From: Rubrivivax gelatinosus
Lineage (GTDB): Bacteria > Pseudomonadota > Gammaproteobacteria > Burkholderiales > Burkholderiaceae_C
Length of the DNA: 64,000 bases
NCBI RefSeq assembly: GCF_016583785.1
Contig: NZ_NRRU01000005.1
Location: 1 to 64,000 of the forward strand
Reading direction: 5' to 3'
Part shown: one piece after another, positions 19,303 through 47,461 of the stretch
How the letters are laid out: each line of letters starts with the position of its first letter
Position numbering within the stretch: the first letter of the stretch is position 1
The notes under the pieces: generated by a model
What the model saw: only the letters and a program-made list of their open reading frames with translations
Databases searched by the model: none
What the model was told of the DNA's origin: nothing
Position numbers and translations under genes: made by a program

Positions 19303-20081
19303 CAGACCCCGGGCGCCTGCCGGTAGTGGTAGGCGAAGGCGTCGGCAAAACCGAGCCGGCGGTAGATCGCACGTGCCGGCAGGTTGTCGGCCTCGACCTG
19401 CAGGTAGCCGACGCGTGCACCCTGCCCCATGGCCAGCCCCAGCAGCCGCCGGCACAGCCGTGACGCATGGCCCTGGCCGCGTGCGGCCGGCGCGCTGAAG
19501 ACGTCGTACAGCCCCGCGAACTCGGCTTCGACCGCGACCTGGCCGCAGGCGACGATGGCGCCGTCGGCCTGGCGCACCAGCGCCAGCGCGCTGTACGGCA
19601 CCGGGGAGCCCGCGAGGCGCTGGGCCTGGGCGATGCGCTGCGACGCCGGCGAACCCCGCAGCTCACCGATCGCTTCGGCAAAATCTTCGGCGGCCAGCCT
19701 GTTCCACGTGAAACCATCCGGCGCAGGCGCCTCGGCCTCGTGCACCAGCTCCGGCGCCAAAGCCGGCGCCAGCATCACCCGGGTGTCGTCCAGGCTGGCC
19801 CAGCCACGCGCCGCCAGATCCGCATCCAGCGACGGCGGCTGGGTATACGGTGTGATGCGCACGAACATCGGCAGCCCGGCGTCGCGATACACCGCGGCGG
19901 CGAGCGCGATGCGTTCGTCCAGCGCCAGCCGGCCTTCGGCGACGGCGTTGATGCAGCGTGCACGTTTGGCCTTGCCCGGCGAGTAGCGCACGAGCCAGCC
20001 GTCCAGCCAGCGCTGCTCGCGCGGCGCTGCGGCGTTCAGCCCGGCGTCCTCGGCGCGGGCCGCCAGCGTCTCAGCCGACAC
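19302..20081 (-). CDS. GNAT family N-acetyltransferase
   Basis: The product (259 residues from GTG 20081) has a C-terminal GNAT domain: IVACGQVAVEAEFAGLYDVFS, the acetyl-CoA loop APAARGQGHASRL and VEADNLPARAIYRRLGF. The N-terminal half (EQRWLDGWLVRYSPGKAKRARC) resembles a second, degenerate GNAT unit as in other double-GNAT proteins. GTG 20081 overlaps the parA stop by 11 bases; an ATG at 20102 is the alternative. The substrate is unknown. The gene body contains a parS site (19700-19715), so ParB may cover it. Confidence 0.85.
   Translation of the reverse strand: MSAETLAARAEDAGLNAAAPREQRWLDGWLVRYSPGKAKRARCINAVAEGRLALDERIALAAAVYRDAGLPMFVRITPYTQPPSLDADLAARGWASLDDTRVMLAPALAPELVHEAEAPAPDGFTWNRLAAEDFAEAIGELRGSPASQRIAQAQRLAGSPVPYSALALVRQADGAIVACGQVAVEAEFAGLYDVFSAPAARGQGHASRLCRRLLGLAMGQGARVGYLQVEADNLPARAIYRRLGFADAFAYHYRQAPGV
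19700..19715. other. parS site (inside the GNAT gene)
   Basis: TGTTCCACGTGAAACC matches the bacterial parS consensus TGTTNCACGTGNAACA at all but the last base. It is the least symmetric of the three sites here. It lies 2 kb upstream of parB's start. Confidence 0.85.
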
Positions 20082-20829
20082 GCAGCACCATCTCGCGCGC
20101 AAACTCGACGAAAGCCTGTGCGCCCTTGCTGGCCGGGTCGAAGGTGACGCCCGGCTGGCCGTAGCTCGGCGCCTCTGCCAGGCGCACGTTGCGCGGGATC
20201 ACCGTGTTGAACACCTTGTCGCCGAAGTGCGCCTTCAGCTGCTCGGCCACCTGCTGCTGCAGCGTGATGCGCGGGTCGAACATCACACGCAGCAGGCCGA
20301 TCAGCTTCAGCTCCGGGTTCAGGTTGGCGTGCACCTGCTTGATCGTGTTGACCAGGTCGGACAGGCCTTCGAGCGCGAAGTACTCGCACTGCATCGGCAC
20401 GACGACACCGTGTGCGGCGCACAAGCCGTTCAGCGTCAGCAGGCTGAGCGAGGGCGGGCAGTCGATCAGCACGAAGTCGTAGTCGGCTTCGGCCGCGGCC
20501 AGCGCCAGCTTCAGCCGGCGCTCACGGCGCTCCAGCTTCACCAGCTCAACTTCGGCTCCGGCCAGCTCGCGGTTCGCGCCGAGCACATCGTAGTCGGCGA
20601 CGCTGCGCTGGCGCGCTTCGGCGACGCTGGCGCTTTCCAGCAGCACGTCGTAGACCGACAGCGCCAAGGCTCGCTTGTCGACGCCCGAGCCCATGGTCGC
20701 GTTGCCCTGCGGGTCCAGATCGACGACGAGCACACGTTGGCCCACCTGGGCCAGGCCGGCGGCGAGGTTGACGGTGGTCGTCGTCTTGCCGACGCCGCCT
20801 TTCTGGTTCGCGATACAGAAGATGCGCAT
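20071..20829 (-). CDS. parA: Chromosome-partitioning ATPase ParA (Soj)
   Basis: The 252-residue product is a deviant Walker A ATPase: MRIFCIANQKGGVGKTTT with KGGVGKTT at 10-17, Walker A' VDLDPQGNAT and Walker B FVLIDCPPSLSLLT. It has no N-terminal HTH, so it is the chromosomal (type Ib-size) ParA/Soj class. ParA-ATP coats the nucleoid and is stimulated by ParB-parS to move origins. It lies about 150 bases downstream of rsmG on the same strand. GNAT overlaps its 3' end. parB is not adjacent. Confidence 0.96.
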   Translation of the reverse strand: MRIFCIANQKGGVGKTTTTVNLAAGLAQVGQRVLVVDLDPQGNATMGSGVDKRALALSVYDVLLESASVAEARQRSVADYDVLGANRELAGAEVELVKLERRERRLKLALAAAEADYDFVLIDCPPSLSLLTLNGLCAAHGVVVPMQCEYFALEGLSDLVNTIKQVHANLNPELKLIGLLRVMFDPRITLQQQVAEQLKAHFGDKVFNTVIPRNVRLAEAPSYGQPGVTFDPASKGAQAFVEFAREMVLRVG

Positions 20830-20980
20830 GCTCGACGCGACTAAGCGCGCTTCGAAGAGGTTCGTGAATGACCGGTCGGCGTTCGGCGCAGTGTGCGGCG
20901 CGAATCCCGTCGCGAGGACGGTTGCGTTTCCGGTGCCGCCGAGCGTAGCGCAGATTGCGCCCTCGGCGCCCGGCAGACGC

Positions 20981-21655
20981 TCAGCGTTTGCGCATCCAGA
21001 CCAGGCAGCGCTGCGCGTCCAGGCCCGGCACCGCCAGTTGTTCCACGTGGAACACCTCGATGTCGGCCGGCAGCGCCGCAATCTCGTCCTCGGGCAGCCT
21101 GCCCTTCATCGCCATCCAGCAGCCGCCCGGCTTCAGATGCGAGCCGGTCAACGTGACAAAGTCAGCCAGCGAGGCGAAGGCGCGCGAGGTGATCAGGTCG
21201 AAGGCCGGCGCGCGCCACTGTTCGACGCGCGAATGCACCGCATGCAGCTTGGCCAGCCGCAGCTCGGCCGCGACCTGGCGGATGAAAGCCGCCTTCTTGC
21301 CGACGGTGTCGACGCAGGAAACGTCCCAGCCCATGACGGCGAGCACGACACCCGGCAGGCCACCGCCGCTGCCGACGTCGAGCACGCGCCCGGCCGGCAG
21401 GCGTTGCGCCAGCGGCTTCACGACGGCCAGACAGTCGGCCAGGTGCTGCGTCAGCATCTGCTCGGGGTCGCGCACCGCCGTCAGGTTGTAGGTGCTGTTC
21501 CAGCGCCGCAGCAGCGCCAGATAGCGGTCGAGCGCGTCGAGCTGCGCCGCCGTCGCCGCGAGCCCGAGCGCGGCGCAGACCGTGGCCGCGGCGCTCATTG
21601 GGGCCGCCACGCCGGCAGCCGCAGCCGCAGCCGCAGCCAAGTCCTCTTCGCTCAT
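20981..21655 (-). CDS. rsmG: 16S rRNA (guanine527-N7)-methyltransferase RsmG (GidB)
   Basis: The 224-residue product contains the SAM-binding [12 protein letters not shown] at 91-102, [15 protein letters not shown] at 53-67 and [11 protein letters not shown], all RsmG blocks. It methylates G527 in 16S rRNA. The N-terminus has an unusual run of alanines (residues 7-14); an in-frame ATG at codon 20 is another possible start. Its start overlaps the mnmG stop by 4 bases (ATGA), a conserved coupling. A perfect palindromic parS site lies inside its 3' part (21039-21054). Confidence 0.95.
21039..21054. other. parS site (inside rsmG)
   Basis: TGTTCCACGTGGAACA is a perfect 16-bp palindrome and an exact match to the parS consensus. 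It is embedded in codons near the 3' end of rsmG. Confidence 0.95.
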
Positions 21656-23601
21656 GCCGCCTCGTCCTGCGTGAAGCCCTTGAACCGGCCCTTCTTCAGA
21701 TGCACCAGCAGCAGCGAAATCGCCGCCGGCGTGACGCCGGAGATGCGCGAAGCCTGGCCCAGCGTCTCGGGGCGGTGGCGCGTCAGCTTCTGCCGCACCT
21801 CGAAGGACAGCGCGGTGACCTGGGCGTAGTCCAGGTCCTCGGGCAGCTTCATCTGCTCGTAGTGCGCGGCGCGCTGCACCTCGTCGACCTGCTTGTCGAT
21901 GTAGCCGGCGTACTTGATGCCGATCTCGGCCTGCTCGATCACAGCGTCGGCTTCACGCGCGCCGTACTCGGCGCGCAGTGTTTCACGTGAAACAGCGTCG
22001 GCGACCCCGGCCGCCGCGGCAGCGGCCCAAACGGCGTCGAAGTCGACACCGGGGCGGCGCAGCAGGTCGGCGAGCTTGTATTCGTGTTCCAGCGCCTTGC
22101 CGATCAGGCGTTCGGCGTCGGCCGCGGCCAGCGTCGCCGGGCGCACCCAGGTGCTGTTCAGCCGCTGCTGTTCACGCTCCAGGCGTTCGCGCTTGCGGCA
22201 GAAGGCGTCCCAACGTGCGTCGCCGACGAGGCCCAGCGCCCGCCCGGCCGCCGTCAGCCGCAGGTCGGCGTTGTCTTCGCGCAGCTGCAGCCGGTACTCG
22301 GCGCGGCTGGTGAACATGCGGTAGGGCTCGGTGATGCCCTTGGTCGTGAGATCGTCGACGAGCACGCCGAGATAGGCCTCGTCGCGTCGCGGCGTCCAGG
22401 GCTCGCGGCCCTGCGCCTGCAGCGCGGCATTCGCGCCAGCGAACAGACCCTGCGCCGCGGCTTCTTCGTAGCCCGTGGTGCCGTTGATCTGGCCGGCGAA
22501 GAACAGCCCGCCTATCGCCTTGGTCTCGAAGCTCGCCTTCAGTTCGCGCGGGTCGAAGTAGTCGTACTCGATCGCGTAGCCGGGGCGCAGGATGTGCGTG
22601 TTCTCCAGCCCGACCATCGAGCGGATCGCGGCGAGCTGGATGTCGAAGGGCAGCGAGGTCGAAACGCCGTTCGGATAGAACTCGTTCGTCGTCAGGCCCT
22701 CGGGCTCCAGAAAGATCTGGTGCGAGTTCTTGTCGGCGAAGCGGTTGATCTTGTCTTCGATGCTCGGGCAGTAGCGCGGGCCCACGCCTTCGATGACGCC
22801 GGTGAACATCGGGCTGCGGTCGAAACCGCTGCGGATGATCGCGTGCGTGCGTTCGTTGGTGTGCGTGATCCAGCACGGCAACTGGCGCGGGTGCATCTCG
22901 GGCCTGCCGAGGAAACCGAACACCGGCACCGGGTCCAGGTCGCCGGGCTGCTCTTCCAGGCGCGAGAAGTCGATCGTGCGCCCGTCCAGCCGCGGCGGCG
23001 TGCCGGTCTTCAGCCGGCCCTGCGGCAGCTTCAGCTCCTTCAGCCGTGCCGACAGCGTCGTCGCCGCCGGGTCGCCGGCGCGGCCGGCGCGGTAGTTCTC
23101 CAGCCCGACGTGCACCCGGCCGTCGAGGAAGGTGCCGGCGGTCAGCACGACCGCGCGCGCGCTGAAGCGCAGCCCGATCTCGGTGACGACGCCGGTGACA
23201 CGGTCGCCCTCGACGACCAGGTCATCGCAGGCCTGCTGGAACAGCCACAGATTGGGCTGGTTCTCCAGCCGCTGGCGGATCGCGGCCTTGTAGAGCACGC
23301 GGTCGGCCTGGGCGCGTGTGGCGCGCACGGCGGGGCCCTTGCTGCCGTTGAGGATGCGGAACTGGATGCCGGCTTCGTCGGTGGCCTCGGCCATCGCGCC
23401 ACCGAGTGCATCGACTTCCTTGACCAGGTGGCCTTTGCCGATGCCGCCGATCGACGGGTTGCAGCTCATCTGCCCCAACGTCTCGATGTTGTGGCTGAGC
23501 AGCAGCGTCGCGCAGCCCATGCGGGCGGCGGCGAGTGCAGCTTCGGTACCGGCGTGACCGCCGCCGACGACGATGACGTCGAACGCTTGGGGATGCAGCA
23601 T
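21652..23601 (-). CDS. mnmG: tRNA uridine-5-carboxymethylaminomethyl modification enzyme MnmG (GidA)
   Basis: The 649-residue product begins with the FAD-binding [19 protein letters not shown] (GGGHAG 13-18), has the catalytic-region [14 protein letters not shown] with Cys47, and continues through the conserved [11 protein letters not shown] and the C-terminal MnmE-binding domain. With MnmE it builds cmnm5U34 at the wobble position of several tRNAs. Length is typical (about 630). The mnmG-rsmG-parA order is the classic origin-proximal cluster. It contains a perfect parS site (21979-21994). Divergent from nothing; the next leftward gene begins 200 bases upstream. Confidence 0.97.
21979..21994. 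other. parS site (inside mnmG)
   Basis: TGTTTCACGTGAAACA is a perfect 16-bp palindrome, the exact classical parS sequence. It lies in the 3' third of mnmG. Confidence 0.96.
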
Positions 23602-33592: not shown

Positions 33593-33647
33593 TGGAGCCA
33601 CGGCAAGTGGCGGCGGAAACGGTGCCGGTGTATTCGAAGGAAATCCG

Positions 33648-34457: not shown

Positions 34458-34479
34458 GTCCCGCACAACTTCGTCCGTC

Positions 34480-35219: not shown

Positions 35220-35220
35220 C

Positions 35221-36428: not shown

Positions 36429-37606
36429 GCGTCGAGCGCGAGCCGCAGGCCGCTGTACTGCCAGCGTGCCGCCGGCGGGAAGAAGTTGCGGTAGCTGGCG
36501 CGTGCATGCCCCGCCGGCGTCGCCACCGAACTGCCGCGCAGCACGATCTGGCCGACCATGAACTTGCCGTTGTATTCGCCGACGGCACCGGCCAGCGGCC
36601 GGAACCGTGGATACGGGTCGTAGGACGAGCGCGTCCACTGCCAGACGGCGCCGAAACACTGCGCCGGCGGTGTCGCCGACGTCGCCGCGTGCTCCCACTC
36701 GGCTTCGCTTGGCAGCCGCGCGCCGGCCCATTCGGCGAAGGCCGCCGCCTCGTAGAACGACAGGTGGCGCACCGGGGCCTCCGGCTGGCGTTCACGTTCG
36801 CCGTACAGCGTGAACTCGAGGCCGCCGTCGCGCCAGTACAGCGGCGCCGTCCAGCCCTGGGCCTGCACCACCGCCCAGCCGTCCGACAACCACAGCGCCG
36901 CGCGCCGGTAGCCTGCGTCGTCGACGAATGCCTGGTACTCGGCGTTGCTCACGAGCCGGTTCGCGAGCCGGTAGGGCTGCAGCAGCACGCGGTGGCGCGG
37001 CGTCTCGTTGTCGAAGGCGAAACCGCCGCCGCCGTGGCCGATCTCGACGCTGCCGCCGGCGTAGTCCAGCCAGCCGGGCTCGGCGGCCACCACCGGCGGC
37101 GGTTCGCCCGGCCAGGCGGCCGGGGCCAGCGGGTTCAGCGCCAGCGCCGCCAGCAGGTCGGTCTGGATCAGCTCCTGGTGCTGCTGCTCGTGCTGCAGGC
37201 CAAGCTCGATCAGCGGCCAGGCGCGCGCGCGCGTGTCGGCGTCGGCCCCGGCGATGAAGGCGGCCAGCGCCTCGTCGACCGCATGCCGCCACGGCAGCAC
37301 CTCGGCCAGCGAGGGCCGCGACAACATGCCGCGCTGCGGCCGCGGGTGGCGCGGCCCCAGGCTCTCGTAATAGGAGTTGAACAGCCGCGCCCAGCGTTCG
37401 TCGTGCGGCCGGAAACCCGGCGCGTGCGGGCCGAGCACGATGGCCTCGAAGAACCAGCTGGTGTGGGCCAGATGCCATTTGGTCGGACTGGCGTCGGGCA
37501 TGGCTTGCAGCGCCTGGTCTTCGGGCGAGAGCGGCGCCGCGAGCGCCTCGCTGTGTGCTCGCACCCGCCGCAGGCGTGCGCCCAGGCTCTGATCGTCGTC
37601 GGACAT
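36425..37606 (-). CDS. egtB: Ergothioneine sulfoxide synthase EgtB
   Basis: The 393-residue product has an N-terminal DinB-like domain with the iron-binding histidines (WHLAHTSWFFE, and HEQQH at 139-143) and a C-terminal formylglycine-generating-enzyme-type (FGE-sulfatase) domain with LPSEAEWEHAA, QWTRSSYDPYPRF and RGSSVATP. EgtB is a non-haem iron enzyme joining hercynine with gamma-glutamyl-cysteine or cysteine. egtA, egtC and egtE are absent nearby, so the sulfur donor may be cysteine (inference). ATG 37606 was chosen because AGGAG lies 8 bases upstream. Confidence 0.93.
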   Translation of the reverse strand: MSDDDQSLGARLRRVRAHSEALAAPLSPEDQALQAMPDASPTKWHLAHTSWFFEAIVLGPHAPGFRPHDERWARLFNSYYESLGPRHPRPQRGMLSRPSLAEVLPWRHAVDEALAAFIAGADADTRARAWPLIELGLQHEQQHQELIQTDLLAALALNPLAPAAWPGEPPPVVAAEPGWLDYAGGSVEIGHGGGGFAFDNETPRHRVLLQPYRLANRLVSNAEYQAFVDDAGYRRAALWLSDGWAVVQAQGWTAPLYWRDGGLEFTLYGERERQPEAPVRHLSFYEAAAFAEWAGARLPSEAEWEHAATSATPPAQCFGAVWQWTRSSYDPYPRFRPLAGAVGEYNGKFMVGQIVLRGSSVATPAGHARASYRNFFPPAARWQYSGLRLALDA

Positions 37607-37767
37607 CGGCGGGGCTCCTGCGGCCGGTCGGTGAATCATTCTGGTCTGGGCTCGTGTCGGTTACCCCTTCGGGCAAGCCCCGTACCGTGTGTGCAGCTGT
37701 AAGCGGCGCACACGCCGGCCGAACGCTGCGTGCAGCCCCGCTGAAACACCGCTCAAGCCCTGCCGCC

Positions 37768-37773
37768 TACAGT
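37768..37773 (+). promoter_or_regulatory. Possible -10 element of the pirin gene
   Basis: TACAGT ends 7 bases before the ATG (37781). A transcript from here would begin at or next to the start codon. No Shine-Dalgarno sequence is present. Confidence 0.35.
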
Positions 37774-37780
37774 GGCTGCC

Positions 37781-38644
37781 ATGGACAGCAGCACCCTCAG
37801 CCCCAGCGTCACCACCCCGCGCAGCATCGAACGCCTGGTCGCCGGCCAGCCGACGAGCGACGGTGCCGGCGTGCGCCTCGTGCGCCTGCTGACGCAGGAC
37901 CTGCAGCGCCGGCTCGACCCCTTCCTGATGCTGGACAACTTCGGCACCGACCGGCCCGAGGACTACATCGCCGGTTTCCCCGACCACCCGCACCGCGGTT
38001 TCGAGACCGTCACCGTGATGGTCCAGGGCCGCATGCGCCACCGCGACAGCGCCGGCCACGAAGGCAGCGTCGGGCCCGGCGGCGTGCAGTGGATGAGCAC
38101 CGGCCGCGGCCTGGTGCACAGCGAGATGCCCGAGCAGCAGGACGGCGCGATGGAAGGTTTCCAGCTCTGGCTGAACCTGCCGGCGCGCACGAAGATGGGC
38201 GAACCCTGGTACCGCGACATTGACGCCGCCGCGGTGCCGGTGTGGCAGGGCGAAGGCGTGCGCGCGCGCGTCGTCGCCGGCCGCACGCACGGTGTCGCCG
38301 GTGCGGTCGAACGCGACACGACCGAGCCGCTGATCCTGGACCTGGAACTGGCCGCCGGCGCGCGTTTCGAGCAGCCGCTGCCGGCTGCGCACAACGCCTT
38401 CGTCGTCGTCTACCGCGGCAGCGCGCTGCTCGGCGGGCGTGAACTGGCGCGCGGGCCGATGGTGATCCTGGCCAACGGCGGCGACGGCATCGTGCTCGAA
38501 GGCGGCGCCGCCGGCGCGCGTGTGCTGCTGGTGGCGGGCCAGCCGCTGGGCGAGCCGATCGCGCAGTACGGCCCGTTCGTGATGAACAGCAACCAGGAGA
38601 TCTTCGAGGCGGTCGAAGACTTCCGCGCCGGCCGCCTGGCCTGA
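37781..38644 (+). CDS. Pirin family protein
   Basis: The 287-residue product is a bicupin of the pirin family: FPDHPHRGFET with metal ligands H69 and H71, and LVHSEMPE with H113 and E115. They correspond to human pirin H56, H58, H101 and E103, so the metal site is intact. Pirins bind iron; some oxidise quercetin, others act as redox-linked regulators. GTG at 37772 is an alternative start three codons upstream. Confidence 0.9.
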   Translation: MDSSTLSPSVTTPRSIERLVAGQPTSDGAGVRLVRLLTQDLQRRLDPFLMLDNFGTDRPEDYIAGFPDHPHRGFETVTVMVQGRMRHRDSAGHEGSVGPGGVQWMSTGRGLVHSEMPEQQDGAMEGFQLWLNLPARTKMGEPWYRDIDAAAVPVWQGEGVRARVVAGRTHGVAGAVERDTTEPLILDLELAAGARFEQPLPAAHNAFVVVYRGSALLGGRELARGPMVILANGGDGIVLEGGAAGARVLLVAGQPLGEPIAQYGPFVMNSNQEIFEAVEDFRAGRLA

Positions 38645-38652
38645 GAACGGAC

Positions 38653-38676
38653 CTGCGGCGCCGCAAGGCGCCGCAG
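38653..38676. terminator. Hairpin between the convergent pirin and creA genes
   Basis: CTGCGGCGCC (38653-38662), loop GCAA, GGCGCCGCAG (38667-38676): a perfect 10-bp stem with a GNRA-type loop, 9 bases after the pirin stop. No T-run follows on either strand, so factor-assisted termination or mRNA 3' protection is likely. Confidence 0.5.
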
Positions 38677-38702
38677 ATCGGGCTCGGGCCAGCTCGGCAG
38701 CG

Positions 38703-39191
38703 TCAGCGCTTGAGCGGGATCGGCGTCGTGCGCTCGACCGGCACCGCCGTCACCGCGTTCTGCGGCGACCCTTCGATCACACGGTCGGAATAGGTCAGGT
38801 AGACCAGCGTGTTGCGCGCCGCGTCGACCATGCGCACCACGTGCAGGCGCTTGAAGACCAGCGAGATGCGTTCGCTGAACATGTCTTCCTGCTGCGGCAG
38901 CGGCTTCGGGAACGAGATCGGCCCGGTCTGGCGGCAGGCGATCGAGGCGTCCGATTTGTCTTCGGCCAGCCCGAGCCCACCCTTGATGCCGCCGGTCTTG
39001 GCGCGCGAGACGTAGCAGGTGATGCCCTTGACGCCAGGGTCGTCGTAAGCGTCGACGACGATCTTGTGGTCCGGGCCGATCAGCTTGAAGACGGTGTCGA
39101 CTTCGCCGACCGGCTCGGCCGCGGCGGCGCCGGCGCACAGCACGAGCACCGCTGCGGCCGCCGCCCGCAGGTGCCAGCGGGTATGAGTCAC
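38703..39191 (-). CDS. creA: CreA family periplasmic protein
   Basis: The 162-residue product has a signal peptide (cleavage near AAA|E at 25) and the CreA family core: [75 protein letters not shown]. CreA is a conserved periplasmic protein of unknown function. It lies 2 bases downstream of the DUF4397 lipoprotein gene on the same strand, likely the same transcript. Confidence 0.9.
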
Positions 39192-39193
39192 CG

Positions 39194-40483
39194 TCAGTGG
39201 TCCTCGACCAGGTCGCCGGCGGGTGCGGCGGCGCTGCCGCCGACCAGCACCGTGTACACCTTGCCGGCCTCGATCACCTGCTCGGTCAGCGACAGCACCG
39301 AGCCGGTCACGACCGGCGAGGTGACGATCAGCGTGCCGCTGCTGGCGGTCGAGACGTCGACGTAGGCCGACGCAGTACCGACCGCGACGCTGGTCACCAG
39401 CTGCGAGGACCCGAGCTTCAGCGACAGCGTCGAACCCAGGTCGCTGATGGCGTTGATGAGCCGGATCTTGCCCTTGCTGCTGTCGGTCGACAGCGTGTTG
39501 TCGTCCGTCAGCCAGACGGCCGCCGGCGCGCCCGCGCTGCCGTAGACCAGCAGCGTGTAGTCGGTGCCGGCCACCAGCGTGCCGCTGGGCAGCGAGCTGC
39601 TGACGTCGGTGCTGCCGATGGCGACCGCCACCGTCGGCGTGCCGGCGTCGACGAGCGCGTAGTCGCTGACCACCGGCGAGCCCGAGGACAGCAGTTCGGT
39701 CCCGTCGACGGTGGCGGTGACGGTCGCATTCGCCGCCGCCGCCGCCGCGACGCGCACGCGGGCATCGGTGACGTCGATGCGGGTCAGCGTGCTCTTTTCC
39801 TCGCGCAGCAGCAGGCCGTTGACGAGCACGCCGCTGGCCGCCGCGGTCAGCGCCAGCGTGTAGACCTTGCCATCGCCGAAGACGATGTCGGAGACGTCCA
39901 GGCGGACATCGCTCTTGCTGCCCGAGGCGGTGACGACCACGCGCCAGGTGCCGGAATCGATCTTGATGAAGTCGTTGAGCGTGCCCACCGCGGCCGCCGA
40001 CTGCGTCGCGACCGAGTCGGCCAGCGTGTCGTCGGCGCCCATCACGTAGACGTCCAGCACGCCAGCATCGGTGGCGCCGTTGAAGACCCGCACCTTGCTC
40101 TGGTCGTCGTCCGGGTCGGAGGTGGTCTCATCGAGCTGCAGCCAGTCGAGATCACCGACCGGGCCCCAGGCGAGGATGGTGTAGTAGTCGTCCTCGCTCA
40201 GCGAGGGCGTGAAGGTCGACACCAGTGCCGAGGCCGAGCCGCTGCGCGAGATCGTCGAGTCGCAGTCGCCCGGGTCGACGTCCTTGTACTTCGTCTCGAT
40301 GCCGTAAGCGATCGAGCTGAACAGGTTGTCGCCGTCGACCTTCAGCGTCAGCGAGTCGTACGAGCTGGCGTTGATGAAACGGACATGGGCCTTGGTCGTG
40401 TCCTCGCCGCCGCCGCAGCCGGCGAGCACCACCGGCGACGACAGCGCCAGCGAGAGCCAGCGCCTGCGGTTGATCTGCTGCAT
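39194..40483 (-). CDS. DUF4397 domain lipoprotein
   Basis: The 429-residue product has a lipoprotein signal peptide with NRRRWL then lipobox VLAGC near residue 22. Two DUF4397-like repeats follow (roughly 30-190 and 245-425; blocks [20 protein letters not shown] and [21 protein letters not shown]), each of beta strands rich in Thr, Val, Ser and Asp. It is probably anchored to the outer membrane or surface. ATG 40483 was chosen because AGGAG lies just upstream; longer frames extend to 40531. Function unknown. The protein is acidic and Ser/Thr-rich, unlike its neighbours. Confidence 0.85.
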
Positions 40484-40595
40484 CGAAGTCTCCTGCGCGC
40501 CAGCGCGAGCGGCCGGCAAAGACGACATCATCGCCCAGTCGCGTTGCGCTGTTGCGTCCGGCGATGACGTCGTCGCGTCGATGCTGCAGCCGCGA

Positions 40596-41483
40596 TCAGG
40601 TCGCGGGCTTGTCCGACAGCGCCTTCAGGTTGTCCTGAAGCTCCTTGCCCATCGGCGCATTCAGGGTAATGCCCTTGGGCGGGATCGGCGCCAGGAACCA
40701 CTTGCGGTAGAGCTTCTCGAACTCGCCGCTCTTCATCAGCCTGGCGACGACGCCGTCGACCAGATGCTTGAACGCCGGGTCGTCCTTGCGCAGCATGATC
40801 GCGTAGGGCTCGACCTGGATCGGATCGCCGACGACGGCCAGTTCGGCCGGGTTCGCCGAACTCGCACGCAGGCCGTACAGCAGGATGTCGTCCATGCCGA
40901 AGGCGGCGGCGCGGCCGCTCTGCACCAGCAGCGCGGCCTCGGCGTGGTCCTTGGCGCCGATCAACTCGATCGGCAGCTTGTTCTCGCTGATCAGGTTGCG
41001 CAGGATGCGGTAGTTGGTGGTGCCGGTGGTCGACACCAGCACCTTGCCGTGCAGATCGGCGAGCGACTTGATGCCCGAGTCGGAGCGCACCAGGAAGCGT
41101 GTGCCGGTGTAGAAGTAGTTGACCGCGAACGCCACCTGCTTGGCGCGGTCGCTGTTGTTCGTCGTCGAGCCGCATTCGATGTCGATGGTGCCGTTGACCA
41201 GCAGCGGGATGCGGTTGGCGCTGGTCACCGGCTGCAGGTTCACCTTCAGGTCGGCACGGCCGGTGGCCTTCTTCACCTCGTCGACGATGCGGCCGCAGAT
41301 CTCGTAGCCGAAGCCGACCGGCTGCGCCTTGTCGTCGAGGTAGGAAAAGGGGATCGAGGACTCGCGGTAGGCGACACCGATGCTGCCGCTGGCCTTGACC
41401 TTCTCCAGCGTGGTCTGGGCTGCGGCCGCACCGGCGACGACGGCGAGGGTCAGGACGGCAAGATGGCGCACGATCTGGGGCAT
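40596..41483 (-). CDS. Periplasmic amino-acid-binding protein (GltI/glutamate-aspartate type)
   Basis: The 295-residue product has a signal peptide (1-22, cleavage AAA|Q) and a family 3 solute-binding domain: IPFSYLDDKAQPVGFGYEIC, IDIECGSTTNNSDR, LVSTTGTTNYRIL and FGMDDILLYGLR. The layout is that of GltI-type glutamate/aspartate receptors of ABC importers. No permease or ATPase gene lies nearby, so it is an orphan receptor. ATG (41483) is preceded by GGAGGA-like sequence. Confidence 0.9.
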   Translation of the reverse strand: MPQIVRHLAVLTLAVVAGAAAAQTTLEKVKASGSIGVAYRESSIPFSYLDDKAQPVGFGYEICGRIVDEVKKATGRADLKVNLQPVTSANRIPLLVNGTIDIECGSTTNNSDRAKQVAFAVNYFYTGTRFLVRSDSGIKSLADLHGKVLVSTTGTTNYRILRNLISENKLPIELIGAKDHAEAALLVQSGRAAAFGMDDILLYGLRASSANPAELAVVGDPIQVEPYAIMLRKDDPAFKHLVDGVVARLMKSGEFEKLYRKWFLAPIPPKGITLNAPMGKELQDNLKALSDKPAT

Positions 41484-41579
41484 GGAGGACTCCGTGTCGA
41501 GAGGTGGAGACCAGCTTAAGCAAAGCGGCTGCCAGCGTGACTCCGCATGAACACCCGGAGTCTGGCGCGCCACAAACGA

Positions 41580-41605
41580 CGACGCCCGGCAACAGCCGGG
41601 CGTCG
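41580..41605 (-). terminator. Intrinsic terminator for the 48-residue protein gene
   Basis: CGACGCCCGGC (41580-41590), loop AACA, then GCCGGGCGTCG (41595-41605) form a perfect 11-bp stem. On the minus strand it is followed by TCGTTTGTGG, a weak T tract. It lies 20 bases past the stop of the minus-strand small gene. Confidence 0.6.
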
Positions 41606-41625
41606 CGAGGGGGTACCGGCCGCGT

Positions 41626-41772
41626 TCAGACGCGGGCAGCAGCGGCGCTCTGCGCGACGATGCTCGACGCGCCGTCCTGCGAAGCCAGCGAGTCGATGCC
41701 GGAGAGCATCACGACGGTGAAGAAGGCCGCGCTGGCCAGCGCGATCAGGCGGGGGGCGAAGCGGGTGGTCAT
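41626..41772 (-). CDS. Small exported or membrane peptide (48 residues)
   Basis: The product has one hydrophobic segment (LIALASAAFFTVVMLSGIDSLAS) that reads as a membrane anchor or signal, then a short Ser/Ala/Gln tail. A GGAGCCCACG context with AAGGAG 6 bases before the ATG (41772) supports translation. A clear hairpin terminator follows the stop. I do not recognise a function. Length and context suggest a real small gene. Confidence 0.6.
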   Translation of the reverse strand: MTTRFAPRLIALASAAFFTVVMLSGIDSLASQDGASSIVAQSAAAARV

Positions 41773-41902
41773 CGTGGGCTCCTTCGGGTTGCGTGCTGCG
41801 ATGGAGTCCACTGTAGGCAGCGCCCCCGGCGGCCGCGAGCGGCTTGCGACGACCGGCGCCGGCAGGCGACGAAGCGCCTGCGGCGGCGACGGGCTGCAGC
41901 GC

Positions 41903-42142
41903 TCAGCCGGCGTCGCCTGGGTTGCGCGACGGCTGCGAAAGCGCTTGCGGCCACTCGGGCGCGCCGAACTCGTCAAGCTCGGCGTGTTCCGTGACCGCCA
42001 GGCCCTGCATCAGTTCGAGGCTGGACTCGTACCAGCCGCAGGCAGCCCCGGCACGTGTGCCGGCCGCGGCCGCCTCGCCCGGCGAAGCAGGCCAGTCCGG
42101 CGAGCCGTTGCGGCGGCGGCGATGCGAGAACAGTGCAGGCAT
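41903..42142 (-). CDS. Small hypothetical protein (79 residues)
   Basis: The product has a basic N-terminus and a core CGWYESSLELMQGLAVTEHA, followed by an acidic Pro/Ser-rich tail. AAGGAG lies 7 bases before the ATG (42142), and its spacing from the next small gene suggests an operon of two short genes. I know no function. The core looks conserved in style (aromatic, Ser, Glu, Leu) but was not compared to a database. Confidence 0.5.
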   Translation of the reverse strand: MPALFSHRRRRNGSPDWPASPGEAAAAGTRAGAACGWYESSLELMQGLAVTEHAELDEFGAPEWPQALSQPSRNPGDAG

Positions 42143-42312
42143 GGACGGCTCCTTCCACTCTCCCCTTCGCGTCGAGCAGGGGTGCCGGCAAATGGTGATC
42201 CGGCGACGGTCATCCGACCATCACCCGAACGGCTCCACCAGCCGGGTAGGAGCCCGCTCCCCCGCGAACGGGTGATGCAGCGTTCACGGCCCGCCAGAGG
42301 CCCGGCAGCCGG

Positions 42313-42894
42313 CTAGCGGCCCAGAGGCGCGACGCCGAAGAGCCAGGCGTGGGCCCAGAACGCGAACACCGCCCAGGCGGCGGCGCCGACGACGACGGTC
42401 AGCACGGTGCGCGAGGCCGTGCCCGGCGCATAGACGGTGCCGGCCGCGGCATCACGCCGACGCGACGAGCGGTAGTCGAACACCGCCCAGACCATGAAGC
42501 TGCCGAACAGCAGCACGTCGGCCAGCGTGTGGTTCGCCAGCAGGTGGGCGAAGGCCCAGAGCTTGACGCCCAGGATCATCGGGTGGTGCAGCTTGGCCTT
42601 GATCTGGTTGCCGGGCACATAGGCGGCGACGTTCAGGATGAAGGCCAGCAGCACCAGCAGCGAGGCCAGGTGCCGCGCCCAGAGCATCGGCGTCCACAGC
42701 GCCACCGGGTCCAGCCGCGCCTCGCCGTAGCCGCGCACGATCAGCACCAGGCCGACGAGCGAGAGCACCGAATACAGGCCCTTGAAGCCGTTCTCGCCCA
42801 GCCGCGAACGCAGCCGCGTGCGCCAGTCGTCGGCGACGATGCGCACCGAATGCACGGCCAGGAACAGCACGAGGCCCAGTATCAGTTGCGTCAT
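42313..42894 (-). CDS. nnrU: NnrU family membrane protein
   Basis: The 193-residue product has about six hydrophobic segments and the NnrU blocks VLFLAVHSVRI, GFKGLYSVLSLVGL, PMLWARHLASLLVLLAFI and HPMILGVKLWAFAHLLANHTLADVLLF. NnrU proteins are membrane proteins linked to nitrite or NO metabolism and isoprenoid-related reductases; no denitrification genes are present here. It starts 63 bases from the divergent MaoC gene. Confidence 0.88.
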   Translation of the reverse strand: MTQLILGLVLFLAVHSVRIVADDWRTRLRSRLGENGFKGLYSVLSLVGLVLIVRGYGEARLDPVALWTPMLWARHLASLLVLLAFILNVAAYVPGNQIKAKLHHPMILGVKLWAFAHLLANHTLADVLLFGSFMVWAVFDYRSSRRRDAAAGTVYAPGTASRTVLTVVVGAAAWAVFAFWAHAWLFGVAPLGR

Positions 42895-42943
42895 GGGTGA
42901 CAGGGGGAAGTCGGGACCGGGCGCATTGTCGCCGCTCGCCCGC

Positions 42944-42949
42944 TATCCT
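42944..42949 (+). promoter_or_regulatory. Possible -10 element of the MaoC-family gene
   Basis: TATCCT ends 8 bases before the ATG (42958). No Shine-Dalgarno sequence lies between them, so a leaderless transcript is likely if this is the promoter. Confidence 0.35.
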
Positions 42950-42957
42950 GCCCGGCC

Positions 42958-43431
42958 ATGAACAAGCGCTACTTCTGGGAAGATTTCGCCGCCGGCAGCG
43001 TCCGCGAGTTCGGCGCCACCACCGTCACGCGCGAGGCCATCCTGGCCTTCGCCGGCCAGTTCGACCCGCAGCCCTTCCACCTCGACGAGGAAGCGGCGAA
43101 ACACTCGCTCTTCAAGGGCTTGTGCGCCAGCGGCTGGCACACCGCGGCGATGACGATGCGCATGATGTGCGACGAGTACCTGCTCGACGCCGCCAGCCTG
43201 GGCTCGCCGGGCCTGGAGAACATCCGCTGGAAGAAGCCCGTCTACCCGGGCGACACGCTGTCGGTGCGCATGGAGATCCTCGAATCGCGGCCGATGGCCA
43301 GCCGGCCGCAGGTGGGCCTGGTGCGCTCGAGCTGGACGGTGCTGAACCAACATGCCGAGCCGGTGATGACGATGGAAGGTTGGGCGATGTTCAGCCGGCG
43401 CGAGCCGGCGGTCGGCGAAAATCCGGGCTGA
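42958..43431 (+). CDS. MaoC-like hotdog-fold dehydratase
   Basis: The 157-residue product matches the MaoC dehydratase family: YFWEDFAAGSVREFGATTVTREAILAFAGQFDPQPFHLDEE at the start (the F-D-P-Q-P-F-H catalytic motif includes the conserved Asp and His), and IRWKKPVYPGDTLSVRMEILE. These enzymes hydrate enoyl-CoA esters. It is followed by a polyamine-binding protein gene with its own Shine-Dalgarno. Confidence 0.9.
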   Translation: MNKRYFWEDFAAGSVREFGATTVTREAILAFAGQFDPQPFHLDEEAAKHSLFKGLCASGWHTAAMTMRMMCDEYLLDAASLGSPGLENIRWKKPVYPGDTLSVRMEILESRPMASRPQVGLVRSSWTVLNQHAEPVMTMEGWAMFSRREPAVGENPG

Positions 43432-43474
43432 ACCCTTGCCGTCTGGCGCTCACCGTCTTCGGAGGAAATCCTTC

Positions 43475-44593
43475 ATGTCCCGTACTTCCCGTGTCCTGCG
43501 TTCGCTGCTCGCTGCCGGCGCCGCCACCGTGGCCTTCGCCGCGGGCGCGCAGGGCGCCGAGCCCAAGGTCCTGAACATCTACAACTGGGCCGAGTACATC
43601 GCCGAAGACACGCTCAAGAACTTCGAGAAGGAAACCGGCATCAAGGTCCGGTACGACATCTTCGACAGCAACGAGATCCTGCACGCCAAGCTGGTGGCCG
43701 GGAAGACGGGCTACGACATCGTCGTGCCGGGCGCGCACTTCGCGAAGGCGCAGATCGAAGGCGGCCTGTTCCAGAAGCTCGACAAGTCGCTGCTGCCGAA
43801 CTGGAAGAACCTGGACCCGGCGGTGCTCGAGCAGATGGCCAAGGTCGACCCGGGCAACCAGTACCTCGTCGACTGGCTCTGGGGCTACGTCACCGTCGGC
43901 ATCAACGTGAAGAAGGTGAAGGCCGCACTCGGCTCGACGCCGCTGCCGGCCAACGCCTGGGACCTGCTGTTCAAGCCCGAGTACGCAAGCAAGCTGAAGG
44001 GCTGCGGCGTCAGCATGCTGGACTCGGCCTCCGAGGTGCTGCCGGTGGCGATGATCTACGCCGGCAAGCCGGCCTACAGCCACGCCGCCAAGGACTACGA
44101 CGCCGCGCGCGCGGCGCTCGCCAAGGCGCGCCCGAACATCACGCGCTTCTCGTCCTCGGGCTACATCGACGAGATGGCCAACGGCTCGCTGTGCCTGGTG
44201 ATGGGCTACGCCGGCGACATGAACATCGCACGCCAGCGTGCGATCGACAGCAAGACGGGCGTCGAGATCCAGGTGCTGATCCCGCCCAGCGGCGCGACGA
44301 TGTTCTTCGACTCGATGGCGATCCCCAAGGACGCCGAGCACCCGAAGAACGCGCACCTCTTCATCAACTACATCCTGCGCCCCGAGGTGCACGCCAGCCT
44401 GACGAACAAGGTCTTCTACGCCAACCCGAACGCGGCGTCGAAGAAGTTCGTGAAGAAGGACGTGGCGTCCAACCCGACGGTCTTCCTGTCGGCCGATGAC
44501 ATGAAGAAGCTGACATCGCCGGACGCCGTGCCGCAGGACATCCGCCGCGTGCAGACGCGCATCTTCACGGCCTTCAAAGCGGGGGCGAAATAA
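43475..44593 (+). CDS. potF: Spermidine/putrescine-type periplasmic binding protein (PotF family)
   Basis: The 372-residue product has a signal peptide (1-28, ending QGA|EP) and the family 1-like PotD/PotF blocks: KVLNIYNWAEYIAEDTLKNFEKETGI, VRYDIFDSNEIL, YDIVVPGAHF, WGYVTVGINVKKV, and NGSLCLVMGYAGD near the polyamine contacts. GGAGGAAATC lies 5 bases before the ATG. It is probably a putrescine or other polyamine receptor. No Pot permease genes follow; the next gene is a DUF924 protein. Its TAA overlaps the downstream start region. Confidence 0.92.
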   Translation: MSRTSRVLRSLLAAGAATVAFAAGAQGAEPKVLNIYNWAEYIAEDTLKNFEKETGIKVRYDIFDSNEILHAKLVAGKTGYDIVVPGAHFAKAQIEGGLFQKLDKSLLPNWKNLDPAVLEQMAKVDPGNQYLVDWLWGYVTVGINVKKVKAALGSTPLPANAWDLLFKPEYASKLKGCGVSMLDSASEVLPVAMIYAGKPAYSHAAKDYDAARAALAKARPNITRFSSSGYIDEMANGSLCLVMGYAGDMNIARQRAIDSKTGVEIQVLIPPSGATMFFDSMAIPKDAEHPKNAHLFINYILRPEVHASLTNKVFYANPNAASKKFVKKDVASNPTVFLSADDMKKLTSPDAVPQDIRRVQTRIFTAFKAGAK

Positions 44594-45150
44594 GCTCCCC
44601 GGCCGCGGTCATCGGCTTCTGGTTCGGCCCGCCGCCCTACGAGCAGCGGGCCGGCTGGTTCCGCAAGAGCGAGGCCTTCGACCGCCTGGTGGCCGAACGT
44701 TTCGGCGCCGAGGTCGAAGCCGCGCTCGCCGGCACGCTGGCGCAGGTCTGGGCGGCCGAGCCGCTGGCCGAGATCCTGCTGCTCGACCAGTTCACGCGCA
44801 ACATCTTCCGCGGCAGCGCGCGCGCCTTCGCCGGCGACGCCCGCGCGCTGCAGCTGGCGCAGCAGCTGGTGGCGAGCGGCGAACACCTCGATCTGCCACC
44901 GATGCAGCGCTGGTTCGCCTACCTGCCCTTCGAACACGCCGAAGACCTGGCGCTGCAGGACGAATCGGTGCGCCTGTTCGGCGCGCTGGCGGCCGAGGAC
45001 CCGGGCCTGGCCGGAGCGCTCGACTACGCGCAGCGCCATCACGAGGTGATCCGTCGTTTCGGCCGCTTCCCGCATCGCAACGCGCTGCTGGGGCGCAGCG
45101 ACACCGCTGCCGAGATCGAATACCTGGCCCAGCCGGGCGCCGGTTTCTGA
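44590..45150 (+). CDS. DUF924 family protein with non-canonical (ATA) start
   Basis: The 186-residue product (from ATA 44590) matches DUF924: N-terminal SSPAAVIGFWFGPPP, GWFRKSEAFDRLV, LLLDQFTRNIFRGSARAFAGD, and the C-terminal RRFGRFPHRNALLGRSDT. No ATG, GTG or TTG is in frame upstream of the conserved N-terminus; the first is GTG 44689, which would lose about 33 residues including the GFWFG block. ATA at 44590 overlaps potF's TAA and sits exactly where ATGA coupling would put an ATG. Likely either a rare AUA start, a mutation, or a sequence error. Role unknown. Confidence 0.8.
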   Translation: MSSPAAVIGFWFGPPPYEQRAGWFRKSEAFDRLVAERFGAEVEAALAGTLAQVWAAEPLAEILLLDQFTRNIFRGSARAFAGDARALQLAQQLVASGEHLDLPPMQRWFAYLPFEHAEDLALQDESVRLFGALAAEDPGLAGALDYAQRHHEVIRRFGRFPHRNALLGRSDTAAEIEYLAQPGAGF

Positions 45151-45192: not shown

Positions 45193-45519
45193 TCAGTGGT
45201 CCTCGAGCCGGGTGTGCACGCCTTCGGCGGGTTCACCGGTGTCCGGGTCCAGCCAGTCGGCGATGCCGATCTCCTGCTCGGCTTCGAACAAGGTCTCGCA
45301 GGGTTCGATCTCGCCGTCGCTGGCGGCTTCCATCGCCGCCAGGGCCTCGTCCTCGCTGGCGTAGGGGCCGAACTGCTGCCGGCCGGCGTCGGCCAGCCAG
45401 TACCAGCCGTCGGGCCGTTGCACGAGTTCACCGTCGCCCGGAGGGGTGGCGTCCAGCGACGCCTCATCCTCGATTGCGGCCGGCACGAATCGCGTGGGGG
45501 TCTGGACTTGCGGCTTCAT
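45193..45519 (-). CDS. Acidic hypothetical protein (108 residues)
   Basis: The product is acidic (many Asp and Glu) with a central GWYWLADAGRQQFGPYASEDEALAAM block of aromatic and Gly residues resembling a small all-beta or SH3-like fold, then DWLDPDTGEPAEGVHTRLEDH. Start ATG 45519 is preceded by GAGGAG. I do not recognise a family by name. It flanks the putative oriC on the left. Confidence 0.7.
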   Translation of the reverse strand: MKPQVQTPTRFVPAAIEDEASLDATPPGDGELVQRPDGWYWLADAGRQQFGPYASEDEALAAMEAASDGEIEPCETLFEAEQEIGIADWLDPDTGEPAEGVHTRLEDH

Positions 45520-45814
45520 CACTCGTACTCCTCTTGGACGAAGCCATTCTGAACCTCGCACCGGGCGGCGCAAGGTGCCCGACAAGCGCGTGGCAGCAAG
45601 GCTGTCCGGGGCCGCCAAAGCCTGCTAAGGTCTGAGATCGATCCGCTGCACACCCGCTGCAGCAGACCCGGCCGCCGCAACCGGCGGCCGACACGGCAGC
45701 CACGCTGCTGCCGTCCGTTTAGGCGCGCACCGCGCCTGCCACCGCCGCATCCAGCCGCGGCCAGCACCCGATTTTTCGCCCCAGGCCCGCGCCATCGTCA
45801 ACGCTGACGGCGAC

Positions 45815-45823
45815 TTTTCCACA
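45815..45823 (+). other. DnaA box variant TTTTCCACA
   Basis: TTTTCCACA differs from the consensus TTATCCACA at one base. Leftmost box in the cluster. Confidence 0.6.
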
Positions 45824-45868
45824 GCTTGTTCTCAACGCATCTGCCGTCACCGAGCCCGAATGCCGTCT

Positions 45869-45877
45869 TGTGGACAA
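45869..45877 (-). other. DnaA box variant TTGTCCACA
   Basis: TGTGGACAA on the plus strand equals TTGTCCACA on the minus strand, one mismatch from TTATCCACA. It is the only minus-oriented box. Confidence 0.65.
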
Positions 45878-45908
45878 ACCTGGGGACGGATGGCGAACAA
45901 GTCATGGC

Positions 45909-45917
45909 TTATCCACA
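45909..45917 (+). other. DnaA box TTATCCACA (perfect)
   Basis: Exact match to the high-affinity DnaA consensus, embedded in GGCTTATCCACAGGCC. Confidence 0.85.
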
Positions 45918-45938
45918 GGCCGATCGCGTCCGCCGGAC

Positions 45939-45947
45939 TTGTCCAGA
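45939..45947 (+). other. DnaA box variant TTGTCCAGA
   Basis: Two mismatches from TTATCCACA; oriented like the perfect box. Confidence 0.5.
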
Positions 45948-46026
45948 AACACGAACGCCGGCAAAAGTGCCCGGCCCACAGCGTTTGCGGCGCTGCAAGC
46001 CATTGAAAACAAAGAAGAAGTCAGGC

Positions 46027-46035
46027 TTGTCCCCA
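46027..46035 (+). other. DnaA box variant TTGTCCCCA (proximal to the trio)
   Basis: Two mismatches from the consensus. It sits 6 bases before the GC block and 15 bases before the trio, the position expected for the box that loads DnaA onto the single strand. Confidence 0.5.
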
Positions 46036-46264
46036 GAACAGGCCGGCCCCTACTACGACTACCAGTTAGAAAGATGAAGCTAATACTGAATAACAGCCGC
46101 GGTGCGCGCGCGTTTTTCCGGGGTGCCGGCGCTGCATCGCGGCGGCCGCGAAAAATCGCGTTGTGAACGGGAAAGAAGAGCGCCGTCAGGAAGACAGCGC
46201 CGTCTGCGCGTTGGCAGCGGCGGCTTCGAAGACGATGAAGCGCGGAGCGGGCGCTGCGCGCCGG

Positions 46265-47113
46265 CTACTGGATGTCCGAGGCCTCGGCCCAGGTCTCGTG
46301 GCGCGGGGTCTCGCCGTTGGCCAGCTCGAAGGCCCAGCGCGACGCGAGTACACGCACACGTTCGACGTTGGCCGGCAATGGCGTGCCGCAGACCGTGCGG
46401 CCCAGCCAGTCGCTGTCTTCGCCTTCGGCGTCGACATGGGTCGAACCGGCACCCATGCTCACGCCGACGAAGCCCTCGTGGCCCGCGGCCAGCGACTCGG
46501 CACGCAACTGCCGCAGCACCGGCATCGCGCTCTGCTCGGCGTTGCAGCCGCTGGCCGCGGCCGCGATCGCGAGGATCGGGCGCTCGCCAGCGCGCGAAAT
46601 GGCACGCAGCTGTTCAGCAAAGCCCTTGACCGGCACTGGATCGAGCAGCAGCGCACCGGCCAGGCGGTCCGGAGCGGCCGCGTCCAGACGCCAGCCCAGG
46701 CGTGCGGCGAAGGCGGCACCCGCCGAATGCCCGCCGACGACGATGCGCTGCGGGATAGCGCGGCCGTCGGGCAGGCGCAGGCCGGCCAGCAGCGCGGTCG
46801 CCATCGTGTCGGCCAGGTCGGGGTTGCCGTAGGCCATGTCGGCGTCCACGCACAGCGTCGCCAGGCCTTGTTTCGCGATGCGGCGTGTGGTCTCGCGCAG
46901 ATTGGCGCAGCTGCGCGTGAAGCCGTGCTGCAGCACCAGCAGCGCGGTCGGTTCGCCCACCGGCAGCGCCCATTCGGCGGCGTAGCTGCGGCCACCCAGT
47001 TCGAGCGCTGGTGTCGGCGTGATGCTTCCGGTCGTCGGCCCTGGCACGCTCGCACAACCGGTCAGACCGATGGTGAGCGCACGGACCAGCAGACGCTTGA
47101 AGGACTTGAACAC
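46265..47113 (-). CDS. Alpha/beta-hydrolase lipoprotein
   Basis: The 282-residue product (GTG 47113) has a lipoprotein signal (FKSFKRLLVRALTIGLTGC, lipobox LTGC) and an alpha/beta hydrolase core: LLVLQHGFTRS, Ser nucleophile in VVGGHSAGAAFAARLG, and a late AEGEDSDW region with conserved acidic residues. GHSAG supports a serine hydrolase or dienelactone-type enzyme. Start choice is uncertain: the frame continues to 47212 but only the GTG places the lipobox near the N-terminus. It flanks the putative oriC on the right. Confidence 0.82.
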   Translation of the reverse strand: MFKSFKRLLVRALTIGLTGCASVPGPTTGSITPTPALELGGRSYAAEWALPVGEPTALLVLQHGFTRSCANLRETTRRIAKQGLATLCVDADMAYGNPDLADTMATALLAGLRLPDGRAIPQRIVVGGHSAGAAFAARLGWRLDAAAPDRLAGALLLDPVPVKGFAEQLRAISRAGERPILAIAAAASGCNAEQSAMPVLRQLRAESLAAGHEGFVGVSMGAGSTHVDAEGEDSDWLGRTVCGTPLPANVERVRVLASRWAFELANGETPRHETWAEASDIQ

Positions 47114-47461
47114 GCGAGGGGCTCGGGCCGCGACGGGCGACGCCGGCAGGGCCGCAAGGCAAGCCGGATTCCCGGTGGCGTCGTGGTCGGCGGTGTCGGT
47201 GGTGGGCGGCATGGCGGCTCGAGTTCCTGATTCTCTTCATCGGCTATTTGCCCTGTGCGAATCAGTGCGAAATGGCAATTTCGGTGTGAACTGATACACG
47301 CAGGCCACGGCTGATCCCCTGAACCCGGGGGGTGAACGCTGGAATACCCGAATCTGGCTCAAGGCTTGCGACAGCGGGCGTCCGCAACATCCACCCGGGG
47401 CCGGATCACCCGGCAGTTCAACGCGTCGGTCACGCGTGTCACGCCGCCGCCCCAGGGGGAG
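47114..47461. other. 348-base divergent intergenic region
   Basis: No gene is seen. It contains a less GC-rich portion (about 47223-47300) with a direct repeat GTGCGAA at 47255-47261 and 47265-47271 (10-base period), which could be a regulator site for the lipoprotein hydrolase or the GGDEF gene. No convincing promoter consensus. Confidence 0.4.

Follow-up and report, generated by a model that had tools for sequence, protein, structure and literature searches.

A probable displaced replication origin and its homologue in the dnaA-dnaN gap of Rubrivivax gelatinosus

Genes and sequence features of the ori2 locus

The window, a 64-kb stretch of Rubrivivax gelatinosus DNA, forms the first part of an 88.7-kb contig in a genome that is present as 247 contigs. 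It includes a non-coding gap of 745 bp (45520-46264), which extends from the ATG of a gene for a 108-aa protein to the end of the next gene and contains a conserved module, here termed ori2, with a series of DnaA boxes, a GC-rich spacer, a DnaA-trio-like sequence, and an AT-rich stretch (Table 1). A GGDEF gene is also found among the neighbors of ori2. The one perfect and four near-match DnaA boxes that a first-pass annotation had reported in this gap were all verified, as was the order in which the last box is followed by a GC block (a 14-nt spacer), the trio sequence CTACTACGACTACCA, and an AT-rich stretch.

Table 1. Coordinates of the genes and sites discussed, in window positions
Feature	Position	Strand	Basis or remark
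Three parS-like sites	19700, 21039, 21979 (19700..21994)		Pattern search; the genome's only ones by the pattern used
ParA-type ATPase gene	20071-21081	-	PF13614; among the parS-like sites
mnmG	21652-23601	-	PF01134; among the parS-like sites
DUF924 gene, flanking	44689..45150	+	PF06041, E 7e-51
Gene for 108-aa small protein, flanking	45193..45519	-	Beside ori2 in 4/4 genomes; no Pfam match at 1e-5
DnaA box TTTTCCACA	45815..45823	+	1 mismatch
Conserved origin module ori2	45863..46100	+	From -181 box to AT-rich stretch; four-genome identity and profile R1
DnaA box TTGTCCACA (-181 box)	45869..45877	-	1 mismatch
DnaA box TTATCCACA (-141 box)	45909..45917	+	Perfect
DnaA box TTGTCCAGA (-111 box)	45939..45947	+	Identical in 8/8 clade modules
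DnaA box TTGTCCCCA (-23 box), adjoining the spacer	46027..46035	+	At most 2 mismatches
GC-rich spacer, 14 nt	46036..46049	+	
DnaA-trio-like CTACTACGACTACCA	46050..46064	+	Within the 30-column block of highest identity in the module (0.81)
AT-rich stretch, probable unwinding element	46057..46100	+	Low-GC 36-mers
Flanking gene, no assigned family; hydrolase-like by reading only	46265..47212	-	Beside ori2 in 4/4 genomes; no Pfam match at 1e-5

The limits of ori2 were set by comparison of the four genomes that carry it. Identity in 30-column blocks was 55-81% across the module, compared to 32-40% in the six blocks of the left flank (45683-45862) and 39-49% in the two blocks of the right flank (46101-46159). 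The -181 box was found at the matching place in the other three genomes, with 1-2 mismatches, and the box at 45815 lies at the same distance in one of these three (G062, 2 mismatches). The AT-rich stretch terminates in a block, TA.TG.ATAACAG, that is common to all four ori2 copies.

The clustering of the boxes exceeded that of simulated sequence, a check that had been named beforehand. The window contains three boxes with at most one mismatch, all within 103 bp (45815-45917), whereas 100 first-order Markov sequences gave a maximum of one such box per 110 bp. The five boxes with at most two mismatches in 240 bp are the maximum of the window; four were reached once in the simulations, and otherwise no more than three. 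The pattern CTACTA...CTA occurs once per strand in the window (simulated mean, 0.00). The lowest-GC 36-mers of the entire window start at 46058 and 46060 (11/36 GC), and nine of the ten listed 36-mers with the least GC begin within 46056-46064, overlapping the trio-like stretch. The perfect box alone is not special, with seven occurrences genome-wide, equal to the seven of a reversed control pattern.

The features of ori2 were compared with published descriptions of bacterial origins. At least three DnaA boxes with no more than one mismatch, as required by Gao 2015, are present, and the AT-rich unwinding element expected of an oriC is represented, at the sequence level, by the lowest-GC 36-mer of the window; no replication-related gene adjoins ori2 in the sense of Gao 2015, as dnaA lies 34 kb and mnmG 22 kb away. 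The BUS search rule (PMC8287927) allows a box with up to two mismatches and a spacer of up to 16 nt, a range that includes TTGTCCCCA with its 14 nt, and asks for at least three consecutive NAN trios. The trio run at ori2 reads CTA CTA CGA CTA CCA and contains two consecutive 3'-NAN-5' trios, as do the other three copies; thus, the trio claimed by the first-pass annotation holds for the perfect, consecutive CTA-CTA, but the CGA breaks the published pattern. In the last 60 nt of 48 Rubrivivax dnaA-dnaN gaps, the longest trio run was two or fewer in 36 and at least three in 12. The basal unwinding system of Bacillus subtilis and others shares with ori2 the box, the spacer of up to 16 nt, and the trio-like strand, and differs from it in that only two consecutive trios of ori2 fit the NAN pattern (PMC8287927).

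A homologous module in the dnaA-dnaN gap

It had been noted that dnaA, dnaN, rpmH, and rnpA are absent around the putative origin. None of them was seen in the window, but all four occur farther along the same contig, at a distance of about 33-36 kb rightward of ori2 (rpmH and rnpA were recognized by reading). The dnaA gene (PF00308, E 5.6e-61), the genome's one full-length match, is found about 34 kb rightward of ori2, outside the window. The dnaA-dnaN gap of this genome contains the arrangement TTGTCCCCAGAAG-spacer-CTACTACGACCACCAAG, 33.7 kb from ori2 and on the opposite strand, and the two modules align over about 180 bp with their boxes in register. A BLAST DNA search of 61 genomes matched the element in four others; the match lay in the dnaA-dnaN gap in three, and in G024 at two places including that gap.

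A profile (R1) was built from 12 sequences, using sequence only, over 182 positions. It matched the window copy, which belongs to the training set, at 45903-46077 (E 1.1e-32, positions 4-179 of 182), and found a match at E ≤ 0.01 in 67 of 81 genomes of the genus, one of them (G067) weak. A second strong copy (E < 1e-30) was present in only four of the 81, all other second matches having E ≥ 4e-4; strict filters and mostly draft genomes were used, and a very divergent or unassembled second copy could escape such a search. The two modules are separated by 33.7 kb in the window genome (G000), 33.1 kb in G063 (a complete relative, assembled as a single contig of 5,043,253 bp), 27.9 kb in G024, and 15.7 kb in G062. 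The carriers of ori2 include R. gelatinosus DSM 1709 and R. benzoatilyticus JA2. Both cores, consisting of box, spacer, and trio-like stretch, are present in all four species. The modules of other Rubrivivax share the box register, spacer, and trio-like core of ori2; they sit in the dnaA-dnaN gap, with no strong second copy found, whereas ori2 is displaced.

In a tree of dnaA+dnaN from 48 genomes, the four two-copy genomes group as a single clade (SH-aLRT 99), and the ori2 copies form one group in the module tree (99/96); the four genomes represent one evolutionary event, not four. Boxes were compared in the dnaA-dnaN gaps of 48 of the 67 genus genomes with dnaN (four from the clade and 44 others). 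The -111 box TTGTCCAGA is shared by all eight clade modules, compared to one of the 44 other gaps. A -141 box with at most one mismatch is present in 4/4 ori2 copies, 0/4 dnaA-dnaN copies of the clade, and 36/44 dnaA-dnaN gaps outside the clade; the corresponding position in the clade's gaps reads TTGTGCACA, TTGTCCACG (twice), and TTGTCCCCG. This weak -141 box of the old copy fits relaxed selection after the new copy would have taken over loading; as counter-evidence, 8 of the 44 relatives also have no good -141 box, yet carry no ori2. Acquisition of ori2 by transfer from another lineage was considered and rejected, since the -111 box ties the two modules together; the module tree did not place the two copies as sisters, yet sisterhood of ori2 with the clade's own copy was not rejected (p-AU 0.397).

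The tree paths of the dnaA-dnaN copy are 2.4-4.7 times shorter than those of ori2 (0.075 vs 0.35 for G063-G062; 0.21 vs 0.51 for G000-G063). The faster evolution of ori2 would be expected if it were a chance or decaying sequence without function, but the conservation of some 240 bp at 55-81% identity, against 32-49% in the flanks, and a box register maintained in four species make this explanation very improbable. From its homology, its conserved block, and its box clustering, ori2 is, with high confidence, judged to be a genuine origin-type module.

Position of the module across the family

The module was sought in 200 genomes of the family, representing 141 genera, at a threshold of E ≤ 0.001, and was present in 180. 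Of 178 matched genomes outside the genus, 123 were placed relative to dnaN, the sole reference gene, and 55 were not placed; the 123 comprise all 57 genomes with at least two matches and 66 with a single, stronger match, and are not a random sample. The module was found only just upstream of dnaN in 51 (49, to which G166 and G277, each with a pair of modules within 0.8 kb, were added), only away from dnaN in 70, and at both positions in two, G235 and G262. In 26 of the 70 it was located wholly on other contigs, and in the remainder at least one copy was on the contig of dnaN, 6.5-616 kb away. The second copy of G235 is 24.4 kb away on the opposite strand, as in the window genome, while the two modules of G262 lie within 0.5 kb. 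A laxer search of 39 displaced-only genomes, together with G235, revealed no module beside dnaN in any of the 39, among the matches listed (E up to about 0.29), indicating that the core is not kept there merely for the sake of dnaN.

Displaced modules occupy several distinct gene neighborhoods (20 loci in 19 genomes). A single displaced site shared by the family was rejected, given these several contexts and the finding that 0/20 loci had the DUF924 or 108-aa neighbors among the matches to window genes. At 17 of the 19 displaced loci analyzed, GC skew increased from the left to the right side of the module (sign test, p 0.001); against the background of 0.61 from the arms of G063, in which skew rises at 61% of random points, P was 0.007. 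The third-codon GC term, right minus left of the displaced module, was 0.075 (sd 0.019), and T/A rises across 12/19. The 19 loci include the displaced copy of G235 and exclude a third module of G108 (L172, 69335-69510), which overlaps a long called ORF. Two or three matches were found in 57 out-of-genus genomes, many of them 0.2-5 kb apart.

These findings suggest that the origin in this family is marked by the module rather than by dnaA, and that the module appears to have relocated on several occasions; the Rubrivivax clade and G235, in which both copies are present, resemble stages of such a move. An origin away from dnaA, which the first-pass annotation had regarded as unusual, seems not to be so: besides the 70 of 123 placed genomes, chromosome 1 of Cupriavidus metallidurans CH34 has been described with its skew transition at a DnaA-box cluster some 90 kb away from dnaA-dnaN-gyrB (PMC2864759). 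The C. metallidurans locus is comparable to ori2 in its box cluster away from dnaA and in its transition, which for ori2 is a putative one, and differs in that its cluster consists of three perfect boxes in 213 nt (PMC2864759).

Strand asymmetry around the two modules

Third-codon T/A asymmetry, corrected for gene strand, was used to ask where the strands switch. Third-codon GC skew was discarded as a discriminator because it did not separate the sampled arms of G063 (+0.009 and 0.000), and T/A alone was used; its term was +0.083 (sd 0.017) in the right arm and -0.106 (sd 0.022) in the left arm. Between the modules, the four genomes gave -0.103, -0.078, -0.137, and -0.015 (pooled -0.071, sd 0.025), which is left-arm-like, and the region up to 60 kb beyond ori2 on the right gave +0.090 (sd 0.021), which is right-arm-like. 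The corresponding values in five relatives lacking ori2 were +0.039 (sd 0.022; 0.001, 0.012, 0.069, 0.063, and 0.044) for the 34 kb rightward of dnaN and -0.125 (sd 0.018) for the 40 kb leftward of it.

A T/A switch at ori2 was better than one at dnaA-dnaN by chi2 values of 11.8, 6.7, 6.0, and 1.0 in the four genomes, the window genome giving the 1.0. Fitted breakpoints were at 32.5, 29.8, 18.6, and 24.2 kb, for ori2 positions of 33.1, 27.9, 15.7, and 33.75 kb, respectively; the best switch of the window genome is thus at 24.2 kb, not 33.75 kb. Three of the five controls favored dnaA-dnaN over a point at +33 kb (by 9.4, 9.1, and 3.8), and two were flat. The third-codon T/A asymmetry favors a switch at the window copy in 4/4 genomes, though barely in the window genome itself; such a switch is a further oriC criterion of Gao 2015, and the KOPS counts and dnaN+gyrB, described next, lend it no support at ori2.

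Other measures did not follow this pattern. The T/A shift is absent from dnaN+gyrB, which adjoin the old site and served as markers that could not have changed position, in comparison with 45 other genomes (p 0.88; dnaN alone, p 0.03); two of the 45 comparison rows (G078 and G104) may have been read in a wrong frame, to judge from their T+A counts. KOPS-like GGGNAGGG sites between the modules number 10:4 rightward, the polarity predicted for a divide at the old site, and 21:1 to the right of ori2, with 19:2 and 2:16 in the sampled arms of G063; the controls are off expectation left of dnaA (19:8) and uninformative. KOPS and data-driven k-mers were not counted as support for ori2, since the interval was intermediate or right-like and the controls misbehaved. 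Cumulative GC skew, which had been proposed as a check, was examined in G063: its lowest point within 0-200 kb is at 34.7 kb, at ori2, but it falls lower to the left of dnaA (-269 at -71 kb), and this measure, weak and noisy in this lineage, was not accepted as proof. The raw skew difference is at least 0 at ori2 in 4/4 genomes (three of them at the widest flank), but was not taken as decisive because the measure misses the dnaA-dnaN site of the control genomes.

The interval between the modules has been rearranged relative to the controls, and for this reason its asymmetry may be partly inherited and could mislead. Apart from dnaN-gyrB, most of its genes lack an orthologue in the 40 kb around dnaA in the five relatives. 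In three of these (G064, G103, and G077), the block beyond ori2 (window positions of about 28950-44600) is found in inverted orientation on the opposite side of dnaA, consistent with an inversion across the origin region. Eight called genes of the interval (contig positions of about 67270-75405, past the window) have no reciprocal-best match in the fetched stretches of three sister genomes and constitute a variable insert.

One possibility is that initiation occurs at the dnaA-dnaN module alone, and that ori2 either binds DnaA as a regulatory locus, with an effect like that of datA/DARS, or persists as a dormant origin. The slower evolution of the old copy, the 10:4 KOPS count, and the lack of a T/A shift in dnaN+gyrB would agree with this. 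A titration site, however, would presumably have no need of a trio-like core and an AT-rich element, the T/A switch is nearer ori2, and in the family, homologous displaced modules are the sole ones in 70/123 placed genomes, with GC skew rising across 17/19; the possibility is regarded as improbable.

Use of the two modules

The best explanation, held with moderate confidence, is that 45863-46100 is a working DnaA-dependent oriC, a duplicate of the ancestral dnaA-dnaN module, and probably the main site of initiation today. As for the first-pass claim that this is the chromosome origin, an oriC-type element is strongly supported, but its role as the origin is only probable, with a homologous module 33.7 kb away. 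Confidence in a main origin at ori2 was limited by the KOPS counts, dnaN+gyrB, the slow evolution of the old copy, and the rearranged interval; the first three of these also speak against a full hand-over to ori2.

In the proposed mechanism, the ancestral module in the dnaA-dnaN gap would have been duplicated to give rise to ori2 before the four Rubrivivax species diverged. DnaA is predicted to load on the strong box or boxes, above all that at 45909, to spread across the weaker boxes to 46027, and to pass the GC spacer onto the trio-like strand at 46050, whereupon the AT-rich stretch would be opened. The dnaA-dnaN copy, which retains the core without a strong box, may be secondary, conditional, or on its way out.

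Alternatively, both modules may fire, either as separate functional origins at a distance of 16-34 kb or as the two parts of a single bipartite origin with wide spacing. Both cores are kept in 4/4 species, the old copy is the slower-evolving one, and the 39 displaced-only genomes have no module beside dnaN among the matches listed; on the other side, the old copy is without a strong -141 box in 4/4, and two close origins would usually be expected to make one redundant. Joint firing is considered unlikely. The more specific suggestion, that chromosomes of the R. gelatinosus clade naturally use two homologous origins, 16-34 kb from each other, and thereby show a transitional state in the repeated departure of oriC from the dnaA-dnaN gap in this family, is tentative and likewise rather doubtful.

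Precedents differ from the Rubrivivax arrangement in several respects. The putative double origins of A. fermentans, Dehalobacter, R. pickettii 12D, and O. anthropi likewise have two oriC-like regions per chromosome (Gao 2015, PMC4403523), but are single-genome cases, whereas the Rubrivivax copies are homologous, have the same gene setting in four species, and have been placed on a tree. The bipartite origins of B. subtilis and H. pylori also have two DnaA-box clusters near dnaA, with the parts close together (PMC4403523), whereas the Rubrivivax copies, 16-34 kb apart, each have their own unwinding core. For B. cenocepacia, the main origin was left uncertain, and a second box cluster was described (PMC4948915). 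Among the matches listed in a search of the open-access literature, by titles and abstract openings, no study of a Rubrivivax origin or of repeated oriC displacement in the family was found.

As of Gao 2015, there was no evidence for a natural bacterial chromosome using two origins (PMC4403523). The Rubrivivax clade seems to represent a stage at which one chromosome carries both an older origin and a newer one. The two modules are short, well delimited, and homologous, and they occur in named strains, which permits direct deletion and marker-frequency tests. On the basis of the family survey, it seems that an origin can be duplicated, yield its function to the new copy, and then disappear from the old site; this would account for an origin that adjoins dnaN in some relatives and is tens of kilobases away in others.

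Additional sites on the contig

The parS-like sites are separated from ori2 by 24-26 kb and from dnaA-dnaN by about 58-60 kb. A further perfect TTATCCACA, one of the seven in the genome, is found at contig positions 81493-81501, where dnaA begins (inside the 5' end of its longest called ORF), and may possibly serve in dnaA autoregulation.
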